A program made the translations under genes and the position numbers. The notes beneath the pieces were generated by a model. It saw nothing but the letters and a program-made list of their open reading frames with translations, searched no databases and had not been told where the DNA came from. Positions 3,725 to 42,825 of a DNA stretch of 44,117 nt are shown here, one piece after another. Every line of letters starts with the position of its first letter. Position 1 is the stretch's first letter. Where the stretch lies: positions 1 to 44,117 of IMG/VR virus record IMGVR_UViG_3300042938_001746; one strand, 5' to 3'. Source of the DNA: a virus.

Positions 3725-5833
3725 ATGCGGTTAATATCAATGTCTCTTAGAAATTTCTGTCAGCATTCTAAATTAGATTTAAATTTTCCTTCAGGTATTC
3801 TGGCTATAGGAGGTCCTAACGGTGCGGGTAAGTCTAATTGTGTAAAGGCTATTTTTGCAGCCTTGACTGGAATCTTTGGTAGGAATGATGGAGTTATAAC
3901 TGACAACATAAACTCCGGTTGTGGGGAGAAAGAAGAAAGCTATATTTCTCTTACTTTTTCAGTAGGTGAGACTGTAGCAGTTATTACTAGAAATCTTAGG
4001 CCTAATAAAAGATCACTTGTTCTAAACGGGGGCGATCCTATCACTTCTATGAAAGAAGTTAACGCTACGGTAGAGGGGCTTATCGGTGTTAGGCTCGAGA
4101 TACTATCAGACTATATATTTGTAGATCAGTTGAAGATGCTCGGCGTTTTTGACTTAGCTAAATCAGAAAAGTTTCAACATCTTCAAACTTTATACGGTTT
4201 AGAGAAGTCGGAAACTTGCTACGAAGAGTTAAATAAGAAATCTCTAGGAATAGAAGTGTTCAAGCCATCAGAGACTCTTGAGTCAATATCTGTTCAGCTT
4301 GAAGAAAAGAAACGGGATTTGGCTGAAGCTAAAATAGCTATGGCTGCCAATAGTCATCTAAATCTTGACGACTCTTATGTTAAGACTAGGCTTTCTTTAA
4401 CGATTTCTAAAAAGCACGGTAAAAATATAATAAAATCTAATATAGGAAAGATAAGAGAACTAGAGCCTCAGATAGAAGAGCTTAAAAAAATTATAGCTAA
4501 TTTATCTGAAAGCAGAGAAGATCTTCTTAAGTCTTTTCCTGATTCTATTAATCTAGAAGAGCTTACTAGAATAAAAAAAGAATGGGAGACTATAGACAAC
4601 TTTGACAAAGTTAGGGCAGAAAACTTAAAAGAACGAGATATTATAGAAGCTCAGATAGTATCTTTGGGATCTCCTCCCGATAAAGAAATTAATTATATGT
4701 CGTCTGACGGTGTTGATTTTTCTAACCTGAGTATTCTTTTGGGCACAGTGTCTTCTAAGGAGGAAAATTTAGAGAAGCTTTTATCTAAAAAAGAATGCCC
4801 CGTGTGTGGATCTACTGGCGATATTCTTATTAAAGCTATGCATGATATAAGCGTATCGATACAGGAGATTAAGCCTAAGTTAAACTCTATGAAGATGGCG
4901 TGGGATAAAAGCAGAGCTTTTGACAAAGCTCTGTACAAGTACGAATCGGAGGCATCGTCTATACAGAGCAGACTTCAAAAGGTTAATTTTAATTTAAGCA
5001 TACAAAGGCCAGAAGTTCCTAGAATAGATAAGATAGACGTTTTTGGTGCTATAGATAAGTACCATTCGTTTAGAAAATCTATTGCAGATATCGATGCTTC
5101 TATTCTTAGAAGTACTGCGGAACTCAACAGAAGCGAGTCATCTAAAAGCACAATGGCCGCTCAGGTATCTGAAGCTTCTACTTTTTGTGATATGCTAGAA
5201 GACTACGAAAGCCAAGAAGCTTTGTTAAATGCTGAAATGAATAGTATTCATAAGAACAAAGAAATTAAAATACGCATCGAAGAGAAAATAAAATCTTTAG
5301 AAGATCAGGTATTTTATCTTTGTGGCAGGCATGACAAGATAAAAGCGGATATGGAAGAGTCGTCTGTAAACAGTATGGTTAGGTTACATCTAGACGATCT
5401 TAAGAGTATCATGCACAGAGATAACTTACCTAAACATCTTACAGTTAATTATCTAAGGAGTACTGTAAAAAAACTTAATGGTTATTTAGATGATTTCAGT
5501 GTTAAGTTCAGTATTATGGTAGATGATGATTTAACTTTTTGGGCAACTCTGAGTGACGGTACTGTAATAGCAGCTTCGCGGCTTTCCGGAGGAGAAAAAG
5601 TAGTATTGTCTTTGGCATTTAGGCTAGCCGTTCAGTCTGACTTGAACGGTATAAATTTGCTAGTTCTAGATGAGCCTACTGTGTGCTTAGACGATGATAA
5701 CATAGCTTGTTTAGAGAAGGCTTTTGATAGGCTTCGCGCTATGTCAAAGTCTTCAGGCCTTCAGGTTATAGTAGTAAGCCATGAGAGCGCTATTGAAAGA
5801 ATGTGTGATCACACCTTTACATTAAACAGGTAA
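3725..5833 (+). CDS. SbcC/Rad50-like ATPase subunit (702 aa)
   Basis: An SMC-type ABC ATPase that pairs with the upstream nuclease. Walker A is GGPNGAGKSN near residues 29-38. Two long charged coiled-coil arms surround a zinc hook CPVC at about residues 358-361. Near the C-terminus come the ABC signature RLSGGEKVVLSLAFR, the Walker B/D-loop LLVLDEPTVCLD and the switch histidine in VVSHES. At 702 residues it is short, like T4 gp46 rather than bacterial SbcC. AAGGGG sits seven bases before the ATG. All catalytic motifs are intact, so an active complex is expected. Confidence 0.93.
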   Translation: MRLISMSLRNFCQHSKLDLNFPSGILAIGGPNGAGKSNCVKAIFAALTGIFGRNDGVITDNINSGCGEKEESYISLTFSVGETVAVITRNLRPNKRSLVLNGGDPITSMKEVNATVEGLIGVRLEILSDYIFVDQLKMLGVFDLAKSEKFQHLQTLYGLEKSETCYEELNKKSLGIEVFKPSETLESISVQLEEKKRDLAEAKIAMAANSHLNLDDSYVKTRLSLTISKKHGKNIIKSNIGKIRELEPQIEELKKIIANLSESREDLLKSFPDSINLEELTRIKKEWETIDNFDKVRAENLKERDIIEAQIVSLGSPPDKEINYMSSDGVDFSNLSILLGTVSSKEENLEKLLSKKECPVCGSTGDILIKAMHDISVSIQEIKPKLNSMKMAWDKSRAFDKALYKYESEASSIQSRLQKVNFNLSIQRPEVPRIDKIDVFGAIDKYHSFRKSIADIDASILRSTAELNRSESSKSTMAAQVSEASTFCDMLEDYESQEALLNAEMNSIHKNKEIKIRIEEKIKSLEDQVFYLCGRHDKIKADMEESSVNSMVRLHLDDLKSIMHRDNLPKHLTVNYLRSTVKKLNGYLDDFSVKFSIMVDDDLTFWATLSDGTVIAASRLSGGEKVVLSLAFRLAVQSDLNGINLLVLDEPTVCLDDDNIACLEKAFDRLRAMSKSSGLQVIVVSHESAIERMCDHTFTLNR

Positions 5834-36028: not shown

Positions 36029-37273
36029 ATGAGCTACTTTTCCATAATTACCCCTACTCATGACGCTTCTCATTTACTCAGAGCAGCAGCTTCTTTAGAG
36101 GCTCAGGCATTTAAAGATTTTGAGTGGATAATCTTGCCCAATAATGGGGCTAGGCTTCCTGATTTAGACAAGCTACCTAATTGTAAAATAGTTACTTCTA
36201 GTGATGAGTTGTCTAAACGTATTGGGTTGTTTAAAAAAGAATGCTGCATGGCTGCATCTGGCAATGTTATAGTAGAGTTAGATCATGATGACGAGCTTAC
36301 TCCTAATTGCTTAGAGGAACTTTACAAAGTTTTTTCCGAAGAACAGTCTATAGACTTTGCTTACTCTAATCATATTACATTTGACGCTAACTTAAACTAT
36401 TCAGTTTTTACCGGTGGTGGCTGGAGCAGTCGAGACTTTGATTACAAAGGTAAAACTATTAAAGAGCAGATTGCGTTTGCTCCGTCTGCGTGTTCTTTTT
36501 CAAAAATATGGTATGCTCCTAACCATGTAAGATCTTGGAAAAAATCTTTTTATGATAGCATAGGTGGTCACGATGCTTCTTTATCAGTTTTAGACGATCA
36601 AGATTTACTTTCAAGAACTTATATAGATGGTAATGTTAAATGGGTAGATAAATGTTTATATGTTTACCATGTTCACGGAGCAAACACCTGCTACGGGGAT
36701 GGAAATGCTTTTATACAAGAAGAGACTCTAAACATACATGACAAGTATATATATCAGATGGCAGAAAAATGGGCGGATTTAAACGGTCTTCTTAAAATAG
36801 ATCTTTGTGGGGGTTTAGCTGGGGAAAGGGGTTACACTACTATAGACCGTAAAAATTCCGACATCATTCACGACTTAGATAAGCCTTGGCCATTTAAAGA
36901 TGGGGAGGTTGGGGTTATAAGGGCGCATGACTCTATAGAGCATTTGATTAGTCGTATACATACAATGCTAGAGGCTAGTCGGTCTCTGGCTCCTTTAGGG
37001 TGGTTCCTAACTCAAACTCCATCTACTGACGGTAGAGGGGCATTTCAAGACCCTACTCACGTATCTTTCTGGAATAAGAATTCTTTTTGGTATTACACTA
37101 ATGAAATTCACGCTAAATATATAGGTCTTCCTGCATTATTCCATGCCAGCAGAATAAAAGATTATTACCCCAGTCAATACTGTGTAGAAAATAAAATATT
37201 GTATACTAAGGCGGATTTAATTAAGCTTCCTAATAAGGAATCATCTATAGTGGTACCGGGCCACCAATATTGA
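36029..37273 (+). CDS. GT2 glycosyltransferase-methyltransferase fusion (414 aa)
   Basis: Residues 1-220 are a family-2 glycosyltransferase: SIITPTHDASHLLRAAASL at the start, VELDHDDELT as D-x-D near residue 88, and LDDQDLLSR (the ED/DD acceptor-base motif) near 190. Residues ~255-400 are a class-I SAM-methyltransferase-like domain: KIDLCGGLAGERGYTTID, then DLDKPWPFKDGEV, IRAHDSIEHL, and LTQTPSTDGRGAFQDPTHVS. The joining of the two domains in one chain is known from other phages, as I recall. Together they could add and methylate a sugar. Confidence 0.75.
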   Translation: MSYFSIITPTHDASHLLRAAASLEAQAFKDFEWIILPNNGARLPDLDKLPNCKIVTSSDELSKRIGLFKKECCMAASGNVIVELDHDDELTPNCLEELYKVFSEEQSIDFAYSNHITFDANLNYSVFTGGGWSSRDFDYKGKTIKEQIAFAPSACSFSKIWYAPNHVRSWKKSFYDSIGGHDASLSVLDDQDLLSRTYIDGNVKWVDKCLYVYHVHGANTCYGDGNAFIQEETLNIHDKYIYQMAEKWADLNGLLKIDLCGGLAGERGYTTIDRKNSDIIHDLDKPWPFKDGEVGVIRAHDSIEHLISRIHTMLEASRSLAPLGWFLTQTPSTDGRGAFQDPTHVSFWNKNSFWYYTNEIHAKYIGLPALFHASRIKDYYPSQYCVENKILYTKADLIKLPNKESSIVVPGHQY

Positions 37274-37284
37274 AAGGGTATATT

Positions 37285-38049
37285 ATGTCAGAAGTAGTTA
37301 AGATTTTTGTTGGAACAGAGGTTAAAACTAAAATAGCTTTAGACGTTTTGTCTTATTCTATAAAGTCTAGATCTTCTTTGCCTGTAGAGATAACCCCTAT
37401 GATAGGGGAAGGTTGGGAAGTACCTAAAAATCTACACCAAGGTACGGGTTTTAGCCTGAGGAGGTTCATGATACCAAAGGCTTGCGGCTTTGAGGGACAC
37501 GCTATTTACCTAGACGCAGATCAGATTGTTCTTGGGGATATAGCGGAGCTATGGGGTTATAAGGAAACTATGGGTACGCAATACTCAGTGGCCTGTACTT
37601 ATCAAAAGGATAAGCATAGTAACTCTCCGTCGCCTCAGACATCTGTGATGCTGATTGATTGTAATATGTGTGAATGGGTTCCTGATGAGCTATGGCAGCT
37701 TTTGTTAAAAGGTTATAACTATGCTAAATTAATGCATTTAGGGTTTATGAAAAGTCCTATTTTAAAAATACCTAGTTATTGGAATCATTTAAATACGCAC
37801 GAGGATACCGTAACTCGTTTGCTACATTATACCAAAGAACCGGAGCAGCCTTGGTATAAACCAGACCATCCTTTATCTGGACTATGGAAAATGGAGTTAA
37901 TAAAAGCTATAAACGCTGGAGATGTAACAAGGGAGGACTTTGTTAGCGCCTTAGCTCTTTGGAAGGCGCCTAAGATAGACCACAGAAAAACACAAGGGCT
38001 TCATCCTTATTATAGTAAGTTTTTGAAGGAGTTTGATAAGCCGAAATAG
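37285..38049 (+). CDS. GT8-like glycosyltransferase (254 aa)
   Basis: The start is the ATG at 37285 with AAAGGG upstream; an in-frame TTG at 37270 is less likely. The protein begins VVKIFVGTEVKTKIALDVL and carries AIYLDADQIVLGDIAELW, where the Asp-Ala-Asp is the family-8 D-x-D, in the same context as in glycogenin and LPS galactosyltransferases. Downstream, WNHLNTHEDT and HRKTQGLHPYY likely help bind the acceptor. Donor and acceptor unknown. Confidence 0.75.
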   Translation: MSEVVKIFVGTEVKTKIALDVLSYSIKSRSSLPVEITPMIGEGWEVPKNLHQGTGFSLRRFMIPKACGFEGHAIYLDADQIVLGDIAELWGYKETMGTQYSVACTYQKDKHSNSPSPQTSVMLIDCNMCEWVPDELWQLLLKGYNYAKLMHLGFMKSPILKIPSYWNHLNTHEDTVTRLLHYTKEPEQPWYKPDHPLSGLWKMELIKAINAGDVTREDFVSALALWKAPKIDHRKTQGLHPYYSKFLKEFDKPK

Positions 38050-38062
38050 CTTAGGTGAACTT

Positions 38063-38779
38063 ATGCGCATATCCGATTTGTATAATAAGCACTCAGGGGA
38101 GGATATATACGTAGTAGGTACTGGACCCACTTTACGTATGTTACCTAAAGGATTTTTTAATAACAAAACAGCAATAGGGCTTAATCAGGCCTATAAAACA
38201 TTTGACCTTACTTACGCTATAACAGTTCATCCTGAGTTAATAAAGGGGTACAAAGAATTTGTAAAAGAGGGTAAATGTAAAAAAACTAAATGGGTTGTGT
38301 GCTCTGTAAAAATGCCACTTAAGTTAGGACTTAACGATGCAAAATATTATGTATATAATAGAAGCGATGATTGGAAATGTTTTATTAAAAGAACCCCAGA
38401 TAGCCTATTCTGTGGACGGGGTATTCAGCAGACTGCAATAGATTTAGCTGGAAGAATGGGTGCTACTAATATAGTATTAGTAGGAGTTGATATGGAATCC
38501 TTAGGTGGAGATCACCACGGGCACAATCAGCATGTGAGATTTCAGGGTATAAGCCCAGAGGACGTATATAAAGAATATAGGATTTGGACATATAAAGCCA
38601 AGAAGTTAGCTAGAGAATATCATGGAATTAGTGTATTATCTCTTTCTCCCCTTTTAGGGTGCGGGGGGTCTATACATAACTCTGACTACGAACAGTTAAG
38701 GGTTGAGATGGGGTTGGAACCTTTAGATAAGCCAAAAGATATTTCTAAAAAAAATAGGAAAAGAATCGACCCCGCTTAG
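38063..38779 (+). CDS. DUF115/GT42-like protein (238 aa)
   Basis: Starts at the ATG at 38063 with AGGTGA just upstream, rather than at an in-frame TTG at 38033 inside the previous gene. IYVVGTGPTLRMLPKGFF followed by AIGLNQAYK is the Gly-x-Gly-Pro plus Gly-x-Asn signature shared with the protein at 35395. NIVLVGVDMESLGGDHHGH carries the second conserved segment with the Val-Asp and a His-rich loop. The tail is basic. A nucleotide-sugar-using enzyme acting on an unknown acceptor is likely. Confidence 0.65.
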   Translation: MRISDLYNKHSGEDIYVVGTGPTLRMLPKGFFNNKTAIGLNQAYKTFDLTYAITVHPELIKGYKEFVKEGKCKKTKWVVCSVKMPLKLGLNDAKYYVYNRSDDWKCFIKRTPDSLFCGRGIQQTAIDLAGRMGATNIVLVGVDMESLGGDHHGHNQHVRFQGISPEDVYKEYRIWTYKAKKLAREYHGISVLSLSPLLGCGGSIHNSDYEQLRVEMGLEPLDKPKDISKKNRKRIDPA

Positions 38780-38819
38780 TGTTACTTATGTTAATTTATT
38801 TTACACAAAGGAAAGAAAA

Positions 38820-40160
38820 ATGGAAAAGAGACACGTTAATCTAATCAACGCAGTAGGGGCATTATCTAATTCAAGCAAGAAAAACAAGCCGTTCCGAGTA
38901 GTGACTGTTGGCGATACCGATGGGCAAATATCATTATCTATGATTAAGACTGCTAAGAACTCTGGAAGAACTAACATAGAGTATTTTGCTTTCGATATTC
39001 ATAATCCCGATGCTGTAGGCGAGCGTTCTGAATCTATTAACCGAGATAGAATAAGGGCACTAGTTGGCTTGGAAGGAGTTAAAAAAACAAGAATTTTAGG
39101 TGGGGATAGTGTCAGTAGCATAAGCAAGGTAGCTGGCGACATCATTATCGCTAACATCGTATATATATCAGCGGAATTCGGAGTTAGAAGATTAGCCGCT
39201 AATTTACAAGACATACTACCATTCTGCAACGAGAGCTCTGTAATAATGGTGGATTGCCTATTCCCTTCCGACTATTCTAAGGGAAGCGCATTCGTTTTAA
39301 AGTCATACGGCTATCTTAAAAAGAAAGGTATAACTGTAGAGGAAGTAGGCCCTGCCGACGAGATTTACCCTTACGATTCTAATGCTGTTACTATACCCCC
39401 CGTAGTAAAGATGCTAAAAATAACTTGCAAGTCTCAGGCTACTGAGACGTATTTATCCGGGCTGGCTTCCGCTCTATTAATGGAGGCGTCTCTACAACCT
39501 AATGAATCAGTTACAGAGGTATCTGAATTTATACCTGAAAAGTCATTCTTAGAGGATACGTTTAGGTTGGAAGACGTGTCAGCTCCCGAAGAGGCTCCGA
39601 AAGTAGAAGAGGTTTTCCATAGTCCATTAGTTGAAGGTAATCACAGTGAATCTAAACCTGCTTTTGAAAGCGTGGAATGGGATACGTCAGCTCTTTCTAC
39701 GGAAGCCCCCTGTGACACCCCAAGAGCCGAGGGAACCAGTGATACAGCTGGATGCACCTTTCCACCCTCGAGTGGGTGTAGTGATTCCGACGTACAACCA
39801 GTTCGATTATGCGAAAATAGCTGTGGAAAGCTGCCTGAAGAACACTGCAAATTGTCTAGTGATTCTTGTGGACGACGGGAGCCCGAAGTGGAATCTGTCG
39901 GAATGGGAGAGTTACCCTACCAGCCAGTTAGTGATTCACCGGTTCCCGAAGAACGACAAGAACTTAACGAGGTCGTGGAACAAGGGAGTGGAGATAGCCC
40001 TGCAGAACAACTGCCAGATCATAGCAGCAGCAAACTCGGATCTGAAGTTTCCCCCGAATTGGATAAAGGGAGTGCTAGAGGCTCTAGACGCAGGCGCAGG
40101 AGTGGTGGGTCCGGTGACGAACGCTCCGGGCCATCGTCCCAGCCAGGACGTAAGGACTAG
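38820..40160 (+). CDS. Methyltransferase-like protein with overprinted tail (446 aa)
   Basis: Residues ~20-200 look like a class-I SAM methyltransferase: VVTVGDTDGQISLSMIK is motif I, YFAFDI the following acidic residue, and GDIIIANIVYISAEFG plus SSVIMVDCLFPSDYS later strands. Residues ~210-297 are an acidic linker. From about residue 298 onward the frame runs through the coding sequence of a family-2 glycosyltransferase in another frame. The encoded tail is Ser/Glu/Pro/Gly-rich and disordered, and ends in SRRRRRSGGSGDERSGP. No stop interrupts it for about 150 codons. A +1 shift at the CCCCC run (39706-39710) would instead join the linker to the glycosyltransferase. AAGGAAAG precedes the ATG. 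Confidence 0.75.
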   Translation: MEKRHVNLINAVGALSNSSKKNKPFRVVTVGDTDGQISLSMIKTAKNSGRTNIEYFAFDIHNPDAVGERSESINRDRIRALVGLEGVKKTRILGGDSVSSISKVAGDIIIANIVYISAEFGVRRLAANLQDILPFCNESSVIMVDCLFPSDYSKGSAFVLKSYGYLKKKGITVEEVGPADEIYPYDSNAVTIPPVVKMLKITCKSQATETYLSGLASALLMEASLQPNESVTEVSEFIPEKSFLEDTFRLEDVSAPEEAPKVEEVFHSPLVEGNHSESKPAFESVEWDTSALSTEAPCDTPRAEGTSDTAGCTFPPSSGCSDSDVQPVRLCENSCGKLPEEHCKLSSDSCGRREPEVESVGMGELPYQPVSDSPVPEERQELNEVVEQGSGDSPAEQLPDHSSSKLGSEVSPELDKGSARGSRRRRRSGGSGDERSGPSSQPGRKD

Positions 40161-40506
40161 GATTAAAAAGTATAAAGTAGACGACTCAGACGAAGCTATA
40201 GCAGCTACGTCTGAGAAGCTTAATTCGTCTATGTCGGGTAAGAGGGGCAAGGGCCCTTTAAATGGGTTCTGCTTAATAGCCACTGCGGAGACTTGGGTAA
40301 AGGGAGCATTCAGGCTTCCAGAGCTATACTTCAACCCTAAATTTAAAATGACGCGTAATGAGGATGAGTTGATGGGTAGATGGAAAGGCTTAGGCATAAG
40401 CAGTGCCATAGCCTATTCCAGCTTTGTATTCCATTACAGGGGTGTTACTAGATGCCCTTCAGGCAAGGGTGCAGGTAAAGGGTTTCTTAGAATAAAGAAG
40501 AAGTAG
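39646..40506 (+). CDS. GT2 glycosyltransferase in overlapping frame (286 aa)
   Basis: A clear family-2 domain: RVGVVIPTYNQFDYAKIAVE, VILVDDGSPKWNLSEW, TRSWNKGVEIAL, IIAAANSDLKFPPNWI (the D-x-D region) and GFCLIATAETW followed by MTRNEDELM. No ATG precedes the domain. Internal starts are a GTG at 39646, with AAGG (39634-39637) eight bases upstream, or a TTG at 39631 right after an in-frame TAG. Alternatively the domain is reached only by a +1 frameshift from the upstream gene near 39708, giving a fusion of about 561 residues. Its first ~450 nt share bases with the upstream gene, and there third positions are poorer in T than after 40160. Confidence 0.75.
   Translation: MNLNLLLKAWNGIRQLFLRKPPVTPQEPREPVIQLDAPFHPRVGVVIPTYNQFDYAKIAVESCLKNTANCLVILVDDGSPKWNLSEWESYPTSQLVIHRFPKNDKNLTRSWNKGVEIALQNNCQIIAAANSDLKFPPNWIKGVLEALDAGAGVVGPVTNAPGHRPSQDVRTRIKKYKVDDSDEAIAATSEKLNSSMSGKRGKGPLNGFCLIATAETWVKGAFRLPELYFNPKFKMTRNEDELMGRWKGLGISSAIAYSSFVFHYRGVTRCPSGKGAGKGFLRIKKK
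39705..39714 (+). other. Candidate +1 frameshift site (C5 run)
   Basis: In the upstream frame the codons are GAA GCC CCC TGT. Slippage of the proline tRNA from CCC (39708-39710) to CCT (39709-39711) continues as GTG ACA CCC in the glycosyltransferase frame, joining the acidic linker to the VTPQEPREP linker without a break. CCC-T is a known type of +1 slippery sequence in bacteria and phages. A one-base homopolymer error (C5 for C4) would give the same appearance. Confidence 0.45.
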
Positions 40507-40513
40507 GAGAGCC

Positions 40514-41143
40514 ATGCGTTACTGGGAAAGCAAGATAGCGCAGATACCAGAAAAAGATAAGATAGGCATAGCTCTAGTTACTTACAATCAGGGTGATTGT
40601 TTAGCTTCTTTAATACACGCTATAAAATCTCAAACTTTTAAGAATTTTAAAATATATATAATGCATGATGGGCCATGGACTTGTGACGATCACAGGGACA
40701 AATGCACCAATGCCATAGGCAATGATGCTAGGTTTTCCGTAATATGTACAGAGAAGCGGGTTAATAAGTTTGGCCACAACATGCGCAAAATTGGAATTAA
40801 CTTAGCTTTAGCCGACGGATGTAATTGGATTGGTACGATGAACGGAGACTGTTGGTATATTCCTGTTTATTTTGAATGGATGCTGTCTCATGCTAACTAT
40901 AAAAAAGCCAACTTTGTTTATTGCAACATGATACATAGTCACAAGTTATGGGAAGTAATGGATACTTCTATTAACAGGGGCAGGATAGACGGCGGGTGTT
41001 TTCTTGCAAACAGCGACATATGTAAGAACGTAGAGTGGAGTGGTACTGACTTTGCTGCTGACTGGCACTATATAGAGAACTTAAAAAAGCAGCCTAATTT
41101 TGCTGCAGCTAAAATTAGCAGGTTCTTATTTACGCATAATTAG
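40514..41143 (+). CDS. GT2-like glycosyltransferase (209 aa)
   Basis: Starts seven nt after the overlapping glycosyltransferase with AGGAG before the ATG. The N-terminus KIGIALVTYNQGDCLASLI and IYIMHDGPW follow family-2 topology. The metal site appears as TMNGDCWYIP near residue 115, an Asn-Gly-Asp variant of D-x-D. A later GGCFLANSDI resembles the acceptor loop. The gene is the sixth glycosyltransferase-type gene of the operon. Donor and acceptor unknown. Confidence 0.7.
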   Translation: MRYWESKIAQIPEKDKIGIALVTYNQGDCLASLIHAIKSQTFKNFKIYIMHDGPWTCDDHRDKCTNAIGNDARFSVICTEKRVNKFGHNMRKIGINLALADGCNWIGTMNGDCWYIPVYFEWMLSHANYKKANFVYCNMIHSHKLWEVMDTSINRGRIDGGCFLANSDICKNVEWSGTDFAADWHYIENLKKQPNFAAAKISRFLFTHN

Positions 41144-41167
41144 TTATATGCAGAACGATGATAAACT

Positions 41168-41770
41168 ATGAGAGTTTTAGTTGCTTGTGAGTATAGTGGA
41201 ACTGTTCGTCGTGCTTTTGCAGCGCGAGGGCACGACGCTTGGTCCTGTGATCTACTACCAGCGGACGATGATTCCCCTAATCATATTATGGGTGATGTTC
41301 GTTATCTTATCAATGGACCAGGTGCTAAGACTTGGGATCTAATGATTGCTCATCCGCCGTGTACGTATATGACTAATGCAGGCGTTTGCTGGTTGCATAA
41401 GGATCCTTCTCGCTGGGATAAGCTAGGTGAAGCTGCCATTTTCTTTAAAGAGTTATATAACTGCGATGTTCCTCGCATATGCGTAGAGAACCCTATTATG
41501 CATAAGTATGCTAGGGCTTTAGTAGGGGTAAGCTATACTCACATAGTCCAGCCTTGGATGTTTGGGCATACTGAGCAGAAGGCAACTTGCTTATGGTTAA
41601 AAGATTTACCTCCTTTGGTTAAGACAAGTGATGTAAAGAGTGCTATGATGAAGCTCCCTCACCGAGAGAGGAACAGGCTACATTACTTGCCACCTTCCAA
41701 GGATAGGTGGAAGATAAGATCAACGACCTACCAAGGCATTGCAGACGCGATGGCCTCCCAGTGGGGTTAA
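41168..41770 (+). CDS. Small cytosine-C5-methyltransferase-like protein (200 aa)
   Basis: MRVLVACEYSGTVRRAFAAR resembles the SAM-binding motif I of C5 DNA methyltransferases, AHPPCTYMTNAG carries the Pro-Cys catalytic motif IV, and ICVENP resembles motif VI (Glu-Asn-Val). At 200 residues it lacks the large target-recognition region. Phage proteins of this kind are often annotated as DNA methyltransferases, but their activity is not settled. Its place among glycosyltransferase genes leaves open whether the target is DNA or a sugar precursor. The stop is two nt from the next gene's ATG. Confidence 0.65.
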   Translation: MRVLVACEYSGTVRRAFAARGHDAWSCDLLPADDDSPNHIMGDVRYLINGPGAKTWDLMIAHPPCTYMTNAGVCWLHKDPSRWDKLGEAAIFFKELYNCDVPRICVENPIMHKYARALVGVSYTHIVQPWMFGHTEQKATCLWLKDLPPLVKTSDVKSAMMKLPHRERNRLHYLPPSKDRWKIRSTTYQGIADAMASQWG

Positions 41771-41772
41771 CC

Positions 41773-42825
41773 ATGAAGATAGGGTTCGACTTACAGTACA
41801 AGAATCACGATGTAGTATATGCGGCCATGCGGCTTTCCGAATCTCTTGAAGCAATGGGATACGACACTTCTTTCTATAGCAGATCTAAGACTAAAAAGGT
41901 TTACGGTTTAGAGTGGGATAATCGCATAACTAGTTACAAGGAAACAGCTTACGAAGATTGGCTAAAGACAATAACTCATATAATATGGCCGGTGCCTCCT
42001 ACTAGGGAAGCCGTGCAGTTAGTAGGTAAGGGTATAGTAACTATCTCTTTAGCTCCGTGGGACTGTCTTCCCTCTTTCGCAAAAAAGTCTCTAGGCTTGT
42101 GCGCTCATGTTATATCTCCGTGTGAGGATAACACTTCTTCTCTTATACGAGGCATTGGCCTAACAAACATATCTACCATCAAATGGGACAGCCATCTTCC
42201 AATAACTAAAAAATTAAAGGGCTCAGTTAACTTAAAGAATCCTAGAGTTCTAGTACCGCTACAATCTAGCCAAGGGCTTAGGTGCGATCTAGACTCCATG
42301 TTCAGAATCATTAGTGGCGTAAGGGACAGATGCTCTGGAGCGGTTATAACAATACTTCACGACCCTAAAGAGTCTATGCTTTGGGAGGTCTATAGAGAGC
42401 TAAGAAGGTTTATCAACAAGCAGCCTCTAGACGGTAGCATAAATGCCACAGCCTGTGGCAGGTCTCCCAATAGTGCTCTGATCATGTACGGCAATAGCGA
42501 TGTAGTACTATGGCCTGCAGAGATAGAGGGTTTTGGATTAGTGGGTATAGAGTCTTTGTATATGGGAACACCTGTTGTGGCCTATGACTCACCTCCAGCT
42601 TCAAGTATAATAACTAATGGAGTAAATGGTTTACTAGTACCGTGTAACCTTGGGGGTTTAGGTGGTTTAACTGTATTTGCAGAGGCCAACGTTAAAGACT
42701 TTGTAGAGATCTCGGCATCTGCAATTAATAACCATTTAGTGGAGCTTAATAAAAAAGCGGGATCAGGGTTAACGGCAAGAAGGAGTAAGTTTAATTCATC
42801 TTGGCGTAAGGTAATAGAGGGTTAA
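41773..42825 (+). CDS. GT4-like (GT-B) glycosyltransferase (350 aa)
   Basis: I chose the ATG at 41773 directly after the previous stop; an in-frame start at 41707 would overlap the methyltransferase-like gene. The C-terminal half has the GT-B donor-binding signature SDVVLWPAEIEGFGLVGIE followed by SLYMGTPVVAYDSPP and NGVNGLLVP, the Glu-x7-Glu motif of family 4. The N-terminal half (KIGFDLQYKNHDVV) is the acceptor domain. It uses a nucleotide sugar and retains anomeric configuration if typical for the family. Confidence 0.8.
   Translation: MKIGFDLQYKNHDVVYAAMRLSESLEAMGYDTSFYSRSKTKKVYGLEWDNRITSYKETAYEDWLKTITHIIWPVPPTREAVQLVGKGIVTISLAPWDCLPSFAKKSLGLCAHVISPCEDNTSSLIRGIGLTNISTIKWDSHLPITKKLKGSVNLKNPRVLVPLQSSQGLRCDLDSMFRIISGVRDRCSGAVITILHDPKESMLWEVYRELRRFINKQPLDGSINATACGRSPNSALIMYGNSDVVLWPAEIEGFGLVGIESLYMGTPVVAYDSPPASSIITNGVNGLLVPCNLGGLGGLTVFAEANVKDFVEISASAINNHLVELNKKAGSGLTARRSKFNSSWRKVIEG

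Follow-up and report, generated by a model that had tools for sequence, protein, structure and literature searches.

We analysed a 44,117-base virus record (IMG/VR IMGVR_UViG_3300042938_001746), hereafter referred to as the window. Near its right end lies a cassette for glycan modification (37270-42825), in which glycosyltransferase-like genes (GT8-like, MptE/sialyltransferase-like, two GT2 and one of group 1 type) are densely packed around a DNA methyltransferase. From left to right, it comprises a GT8-like gene (37270-38049), an MptE-like/sialyltransferase-like gene (38033-38779), a methyltransferase-like (MT-like) ORF of 446 aa on the plus strand (38820-40160), a GT2 open frame on the same strand (39631-40506, with a probable gene extent of 39739-40506), a second GT2 gene downstream (40514-41143), the DNA methyltransferase (41168-41770) and the group 1 type glycosyltransferase (41707-42825). 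The cassette appears to be modularly assembled, since its downstream GT2 gene is also present in phages that lack the overlap described below (L031, 7356-8033; L041, 5995-6624).

Residues 1-225 of the MT-like protein (38820-39494, plus strand) were modelled by AlphaFold2 with a pLDDT of ∼90 over most of their length and, according to Foldseek matches to SAM methyltransferases in PDB and to alignment with relatives, are predicted to adopt a class I SAM-methyltransferase fold. The methyltransferase label given by a first-pass annotation of this DNA was backed by the copies of five relatives (L001-L004 and L006), which match PF13578 (Methyltransf_24), but not by the window's own copy, for which no Pfam match was found. 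The domain is followed by a singly coded linker of variable length (39495-39738, plus strand), where synonymous differences in the MT frame are at background up to the last dozen codons, and then by a C-terminal tail; linker and tail are both predicted to be disordered (pLDDT <50). The GT2 protein matches PF00535 (E = 1.7e-14, 54.5 bits against a gathering score of 23.3), and its AlphaFold2 model, started from position 39748, is complete, has a pLDDT of 86 and finds GT-A fold proteins in PDB by Foldseek (WrtF, AvpGT and TarP).

Examination of the open reading frames reproduced the coordinates of both frames and hence the overlap between MT-like ORF and GT2 frame that had been claimed. The run open in both frames extends for 175-176 codons, and the next longest secondary run on the same strand of any window gene reaches 84 codons (median ∼33), in agreement with the earlier statement that all other such frames are about half as long or less. 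The shared stretch is thus real, but its size is probably about 422 nt (39739-40160, plus strand) and not 530 nt, since the conserved part of GT2 and its probable start lie at 39739, or alternatively at 39748, and not at 39631. Within this region the MT-like C-terminal tail and the GT2 catalytic core are encoded by the same nucleotides. Relative to GT2, the open MT frame covers the first half of the gene.

The same gene pair was found in nine further distinct IMG/VR loci (L001, L002, L003, L004, L006, L009, L037, L053 and L071), which together with the window make up the ten loci compared here, all of them metagenomic and belonging to one phage group. L005 is locally identical to L004, L072 and L073 are locally identical to L071, and L007 repeats the window's own locus in shortened form. 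In the eight loci aligned to the window, GT2 was 45-74% identical to the window's copy, L071 being aligned to L053 only. The MT stop occupies the same GT2 column in 7 of the 9 aligned loci, and lies 6 codons further on in the window and 15 codons further on in L053. Searches of annotated phage records by DNA or protein gave no match to the locus, so these phages have neither isolates nor a known host. A genome contig search returned distant GT2 matches only (26-34% identity), and no description of this gene pair was found in the open-access literature. We also observed a strong RNA hairpin inside GT2, just past the MT stop (40177-40232 in the window, plus strand). Similar hairpins lie ∼20-65 nt past the stop in most of L001-L009, L037 and L053, with z-scores down to -7.7 in 60-nt windows, against a background rate of such windows of ∼2%. 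Their sequences differ in L002, L003 and L009, as if the hairpin had been re-formed repeatedly, and the hairpin is weak in L071. It is not an intrinsic terminator in the window or in L009, because no U-run follows it there.

The relative phase of the two frames makes a stop-codon test possible. The third position of a GT2 codon is the first position of an MT codon, and consequently a T at the wobble position creates a stop in the MT frame when AA, AG or GA follows, exactly as the first-pass annotation had reasoned. Third-position T amounted to 0.18 in the overlap, close to the 17% counted by hand before, and rose to 0.28 after it, which is lower than the third previously estimated. The absence of T before overlap GT2 codons beginning with AA, AG or GA was also confirmed, though we counted 30 positions where a synonymous T could have stood, not about 40. 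When synonymous codons were drawn 5,000-20,000 times, keeping the GT2 protein and the codon use of the genome, 14 MT-frame stops were expected in the window overlap and the minimum in any draw was 3-4; none is present. Shuffling only the overlap's own codons lowered the expectation to ∼6 stops, with a probability of 0.0003 of finding none. The result extends to the relatives: in 10 out of 10 loci the tail frame contains no stop, where 8-14 were expected per locus. Overall, a synonymous T occurs at 0 of 273 stop-making sites in the overlaps of the ten loci and at 124 of 279 such sites after them.

These figures bear on the simplest alternative, namely that the tail frame stays open only because GT2 is conserved and its codon choice is GC-rich, the tail being untranslated or unselected. 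GT2 conservation alone does dictate part of the tail sequence, and G+C in the overlap (0.535) is above that of the genome (0.40). The stop test argues against this explanation, as do non-overlapping glycosyltransferases from the same genomes and from outgroups, whose equivalent frame is interrupted by 5-25 stops within its first 132 codons.

We then compared synonymous variation inside and outside the shared stretch. In seven loci, codons for the same GT2 residue differed in 29.5% of pairwise comparisons within the overlap and in 55.6% after it, while GT2 protein divergence was about equal in both parts. Among invariant GT2 residues, 28 of 63 were encoded by one identical codon in all seven close relatives inside the overlap, compared with 0 of 51 beyond it. 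A sliding profile of GT2 synonymous variation (0.17-0.49 per 15-codon window in the overlap, 0.54-0.68 after) located the rise at the MT stop. Reciprocally, synonymous differences in the MT frame remained at ∼0.5-0.6 (about 0.56) across domain and linker, until a fall that sets in roughly twelve codons ahead of the shared stretch. Taken together, the substitution patterns of the compared loci show purifying selection on both frames across the shared stretch; a complete phylogenetic model of both frames would need more than these ten loci. Such a low level of synonymous variation could also be produced by an RNA element, either a structure or a packaging signal, acting without any coding role. 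We consider this explanation highly improbable, because no unusual folding was detected in the overlap (z near 0 in 80-nt windows at all offsets), T is barred specifically where it would yield a stop or an aromatic residue, and the constraint ends at the MT stop.

Selection could in principle preserve only the openness of the tail frame. Inspection of the T residues that are kept at four-fold sites of the overlap revealed that they make Cys in 44 of 78 cases and Ser in 31 of 78, and never a stop, Trp or Phe. At three GT2 columns a wobble T that makes Cys is conserved, in 9 of 9, 8 of 9 and 8 of 9 loci. These cysteines belong to the pattern C331-x3-C335-x7-C343-x6-C350 in the window tail (39810-39869, plus strand), of which three to four are conserved in close relatives. 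A zinc-binding Cys motif would call for regularly spaced ligands in a folded unit; here their spacing differs in L053, and the region has a pLDDT <50. Towards its C-terminus, the tail closes with a basic run at a homologous place (R420 and R423-R427 in the window; 40077-40100, plus strand), which reads RRRRR in the window, RKRRKR in L037, RGSRRSRRSRNKR in L053 and KRKSRRPRRSRNKR in L071, and tolerates both synonymous swaps of Arg codons and Arg-to-Lys changes such as those of L037. The earlier description of the tail as disordered and rich in Ser, Glu and Pro with an Arg-rich end is therefore correct but incomplete, since it missed the Cys pattern that is kept by an otherwise avoided T.

Tail similarity exceeded the mean of a by-product null, built with the synonymous divergence found after the overlap, in 36 out of 36 pairs (mean z of 6.4). 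Under a stricter null, with synonymous divergence matched to that of the overlap, the excess in tail conservation was mild, so that the signal consists mostly in the small number of changes accepted and less in their conservativeness. Because the Cys-making T is kept, the basic run accepts Arg-to-Lys changes and tail similarity is above the null, we conclude from sequence comparison that selection is acting on tail residues, beyond frame openness alone. The selection for dual coding proposed by the first-pass annotation is in this way supported by the stop test, the synonymous drop and the tail similarity. Two of the outcomes that it had named as refuting it, frequent upstream-frame stops in relatives and GT2 synonymous variation that does not drop, were looked for in the sequences and neither was found. 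For the same reasons, together with the end of the synonymous drop at the MT stop and the conservation of the Cys-making T, we give almost no credence to a tail frame that is open only as a by-product.

How the GT2 protein is made is a separate question. The TTG at 39631 was rejected as its start, being merely the first TTG after a stop, in a part of the GT2 frame that is not conserved and that is interrupted by stops in relatives. In 9 of 10 loci the stretch that precedes the PTYN motif offers no usable ATG. On the other hand, a GAGG that probably serves as the Shine-Dalgarno site of GT2 is found inside the MT ORF upstream of GT2 in 10 out of 10 loci (39729-39732 in the window, plus strand), and the MT-frame Glu codon at this place showed 0 synonymous differences out of 21. 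In L071 an ATG, at 5692, stands 6 nt past the GAGG, and in the window a GTG at 39739 has the same spacing, the alternative there being a CTG at 39748. The best-placed start candidate in the other eight loci is a CTG located 9, 12 or 15 nt from the GAGG. In L004 a TAG lies one codon before this CTG, and GT2 cannot start further upstream there for that reason. Most likely, then, the start of GT2 lies within the MT gene, downstream of a GAGG acting as an embedded Shine-Dalgarno site; this gives the gene a probable extent of 39739-40506 (plus strand) and the overlap its 422 nt. From the presence of GAGG in all loci, the spacing of the ATG, GTG and CTG codons and the invariant MT-frame Glu codon, we infer that internal initiation is the favoured route to GT2. 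Two observations run against it. In 8 of 10 loci the candidate start is a CTG, which is weak and unusual; although the initiator tRNA can engage CTG in initiation complexes of bacteria, this codon is noncanonical (PMC11497404). Also, a TTTC that internal initiation does not need is conserved in 9 of 10 loci.

This TTTC (39759-39762, plus strand) reads as Phe in both frames and suggests another route, in which programmed +1 frameshifting at TTT_C, with the Phe-tRNA slipping from UUU to UUC, would produce an MT-linker-GT2 fusion, and the ribosomes that stay in frame would make the tail. In favour of this possibility, the motif occurs at a variable distance before PTYN in a tail from which Phe is otherwise nearly missing, and the nine loci that carry it are those without a usable GT2 ATG. 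L053 has exactly UUU_CGU, and +1 shifts are known to occur at UUU_CGN in influenza PA-X (PMC3498833) and amalgaviruses (PMC5052127); +1 frameshifting is also known from Listeria phages (PMC5009743). However, L071 lacks TTTC and has the canonical GAGG-6-ATG start instead, so that the slippery site is not present in every member. Furthermore, the codon after TTT is variable (CCA, CCC, CAA or CGT), no RNA structure was found downstream of TTTC (mean z ∼0), and in most loci the GAGG lies 20-26 nt from it, too distant to act. We thus regard frameshifting as unlikely; if it did occur, dual coding would still be real and only the route of GT2 expression would change.

Homologues outside the clade allowed us to order the two readings in time. 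MT homologues of distant relatives, among them L031/L074, stop at the domain end and have no tail. The tail itself belongs to no Pfam or PHROGs family. L041, in turn, carries a stand-alone GT2 homologue with an ATG start. Because the outgroup MTs are tail-less and the GT2 of L041 stands alone, these comparisons show that GT2 is the older reading and that the tail is derived and overprinted on it. Most simply, the overprinting would have arisen through loss of the MT stop followed by extension.

Alignment of the MT domains showed that the E/D of motif I and the DGG(H) motif, both retained in relatives, are replaced in the window's copy, which suggests that its domain (38820-39494) is a pseudoenzyme. 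As these motifs are lost and no Pfam family matches the copy while the tail is intact, the tail may be of importance independently of any catalysis. Speculatively, a basic, Cys-bearing tail could tether the MT-like protein to a polyanion, either nucleic acid or glycan, or to partners in the pathway of the cassette. It is possible, if rather doubtful, that overprinting gave birth to a Cys-bearing, Arg-tipped arm binding nucleic acid or other polyanions, which has outlived MT catalysis in the window's phage, the overlap being kept for the tail and not for the enzyme.

Overall, open frames of excess length, a synonymous drop confined to the overlap, selection on tail residues and a tail-less older state, the marks of an overprinted pair, were all found at this locus. 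We consider it very probable that this is a true dual-coding overlap, in which GT2 is overprinted by the MT tail and each mRNA yields two predicted proteins, GT2 probably being produced by internal initiation. The upstream MT-like gene would have gained a new C-terminal tail of ∼140 residues from the DNA of the older GT2, read in another frame. One mRNA would then give two proteins, the first being the MT-like protein with an unstructured Cys/Glu/Ser/Pro tail that closes in a basic run, and the second a separate GT2 initiated internally, behind the GAGG of the MT gene, at GTG 39739 in the window and at CTG or ATG in the relatives.

Proof of long conserved overlaps on the same strand is rare in large dsDNA phages, where annotation rules tend to trim or discard one of the frames. 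Here the boundary is sharp, the outgroups are tail-less and ten distinct sequences can be compared, so that one can trace residue by residue how overprinting gave birth to a protein segment. The locus also points to non-AUG internal initiation being kept in phages that could easily evolve an ATG, and makes it a testable idea that the ratio between both products is regulated. In phage lambda, Rz1 is nested in Rz, two frames on the same strand of a dsDNA phage share DNA, the second product arises by internal initiation, and both proteins act in lysis. The pair described here has in common with them the shared DNA of two same-strand frames of a dsDNA phage and, probably, the internal initiation of a second product, but what the additional frame encodes here is the tail of an enzyme that is unrelated to the other protein.

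Unidirectional overlaps in prokaryotes that arose when the upstream gene was lengthened at its 3′ end (PMC3887535) likewise lie on the same strand and probably follow the loss of an upstream stop. They mostly span a few nucleotides, whereas the present one covers ∼400 nt with selection at the amino acid level in both frames. As for the UUU_CGN sites of influenza PA-X and amalgaviruses (PMC3498833, PMC5052127), the TTT-C junction would join the same relative pair of frames if the frameshift reading held, but here the site is missing in L071, the A-site codon is not conserved and a Shine-Dalgarno start is present. Closest in kind are the overprinted viral and bacterial genes (PMC8227390), which also combine an ancestral enzyme frame, a younger disordered product and synonymous constraint on the old frame. 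The present case differs from them in that the younger reading, ∼420 nt long, extends an existing neighbour gene at the C-terminal end of its product, and in that it occurs in phages with contigs of up to 190 kb, which have no evident need to save space. Considering that 84% of annotated viral overlaps are shorter than 50 nt (PMC7017920), the pair is, as far as sequence evidence goes, an unusually long and well-supported addition to the overprinted overlapping genes.
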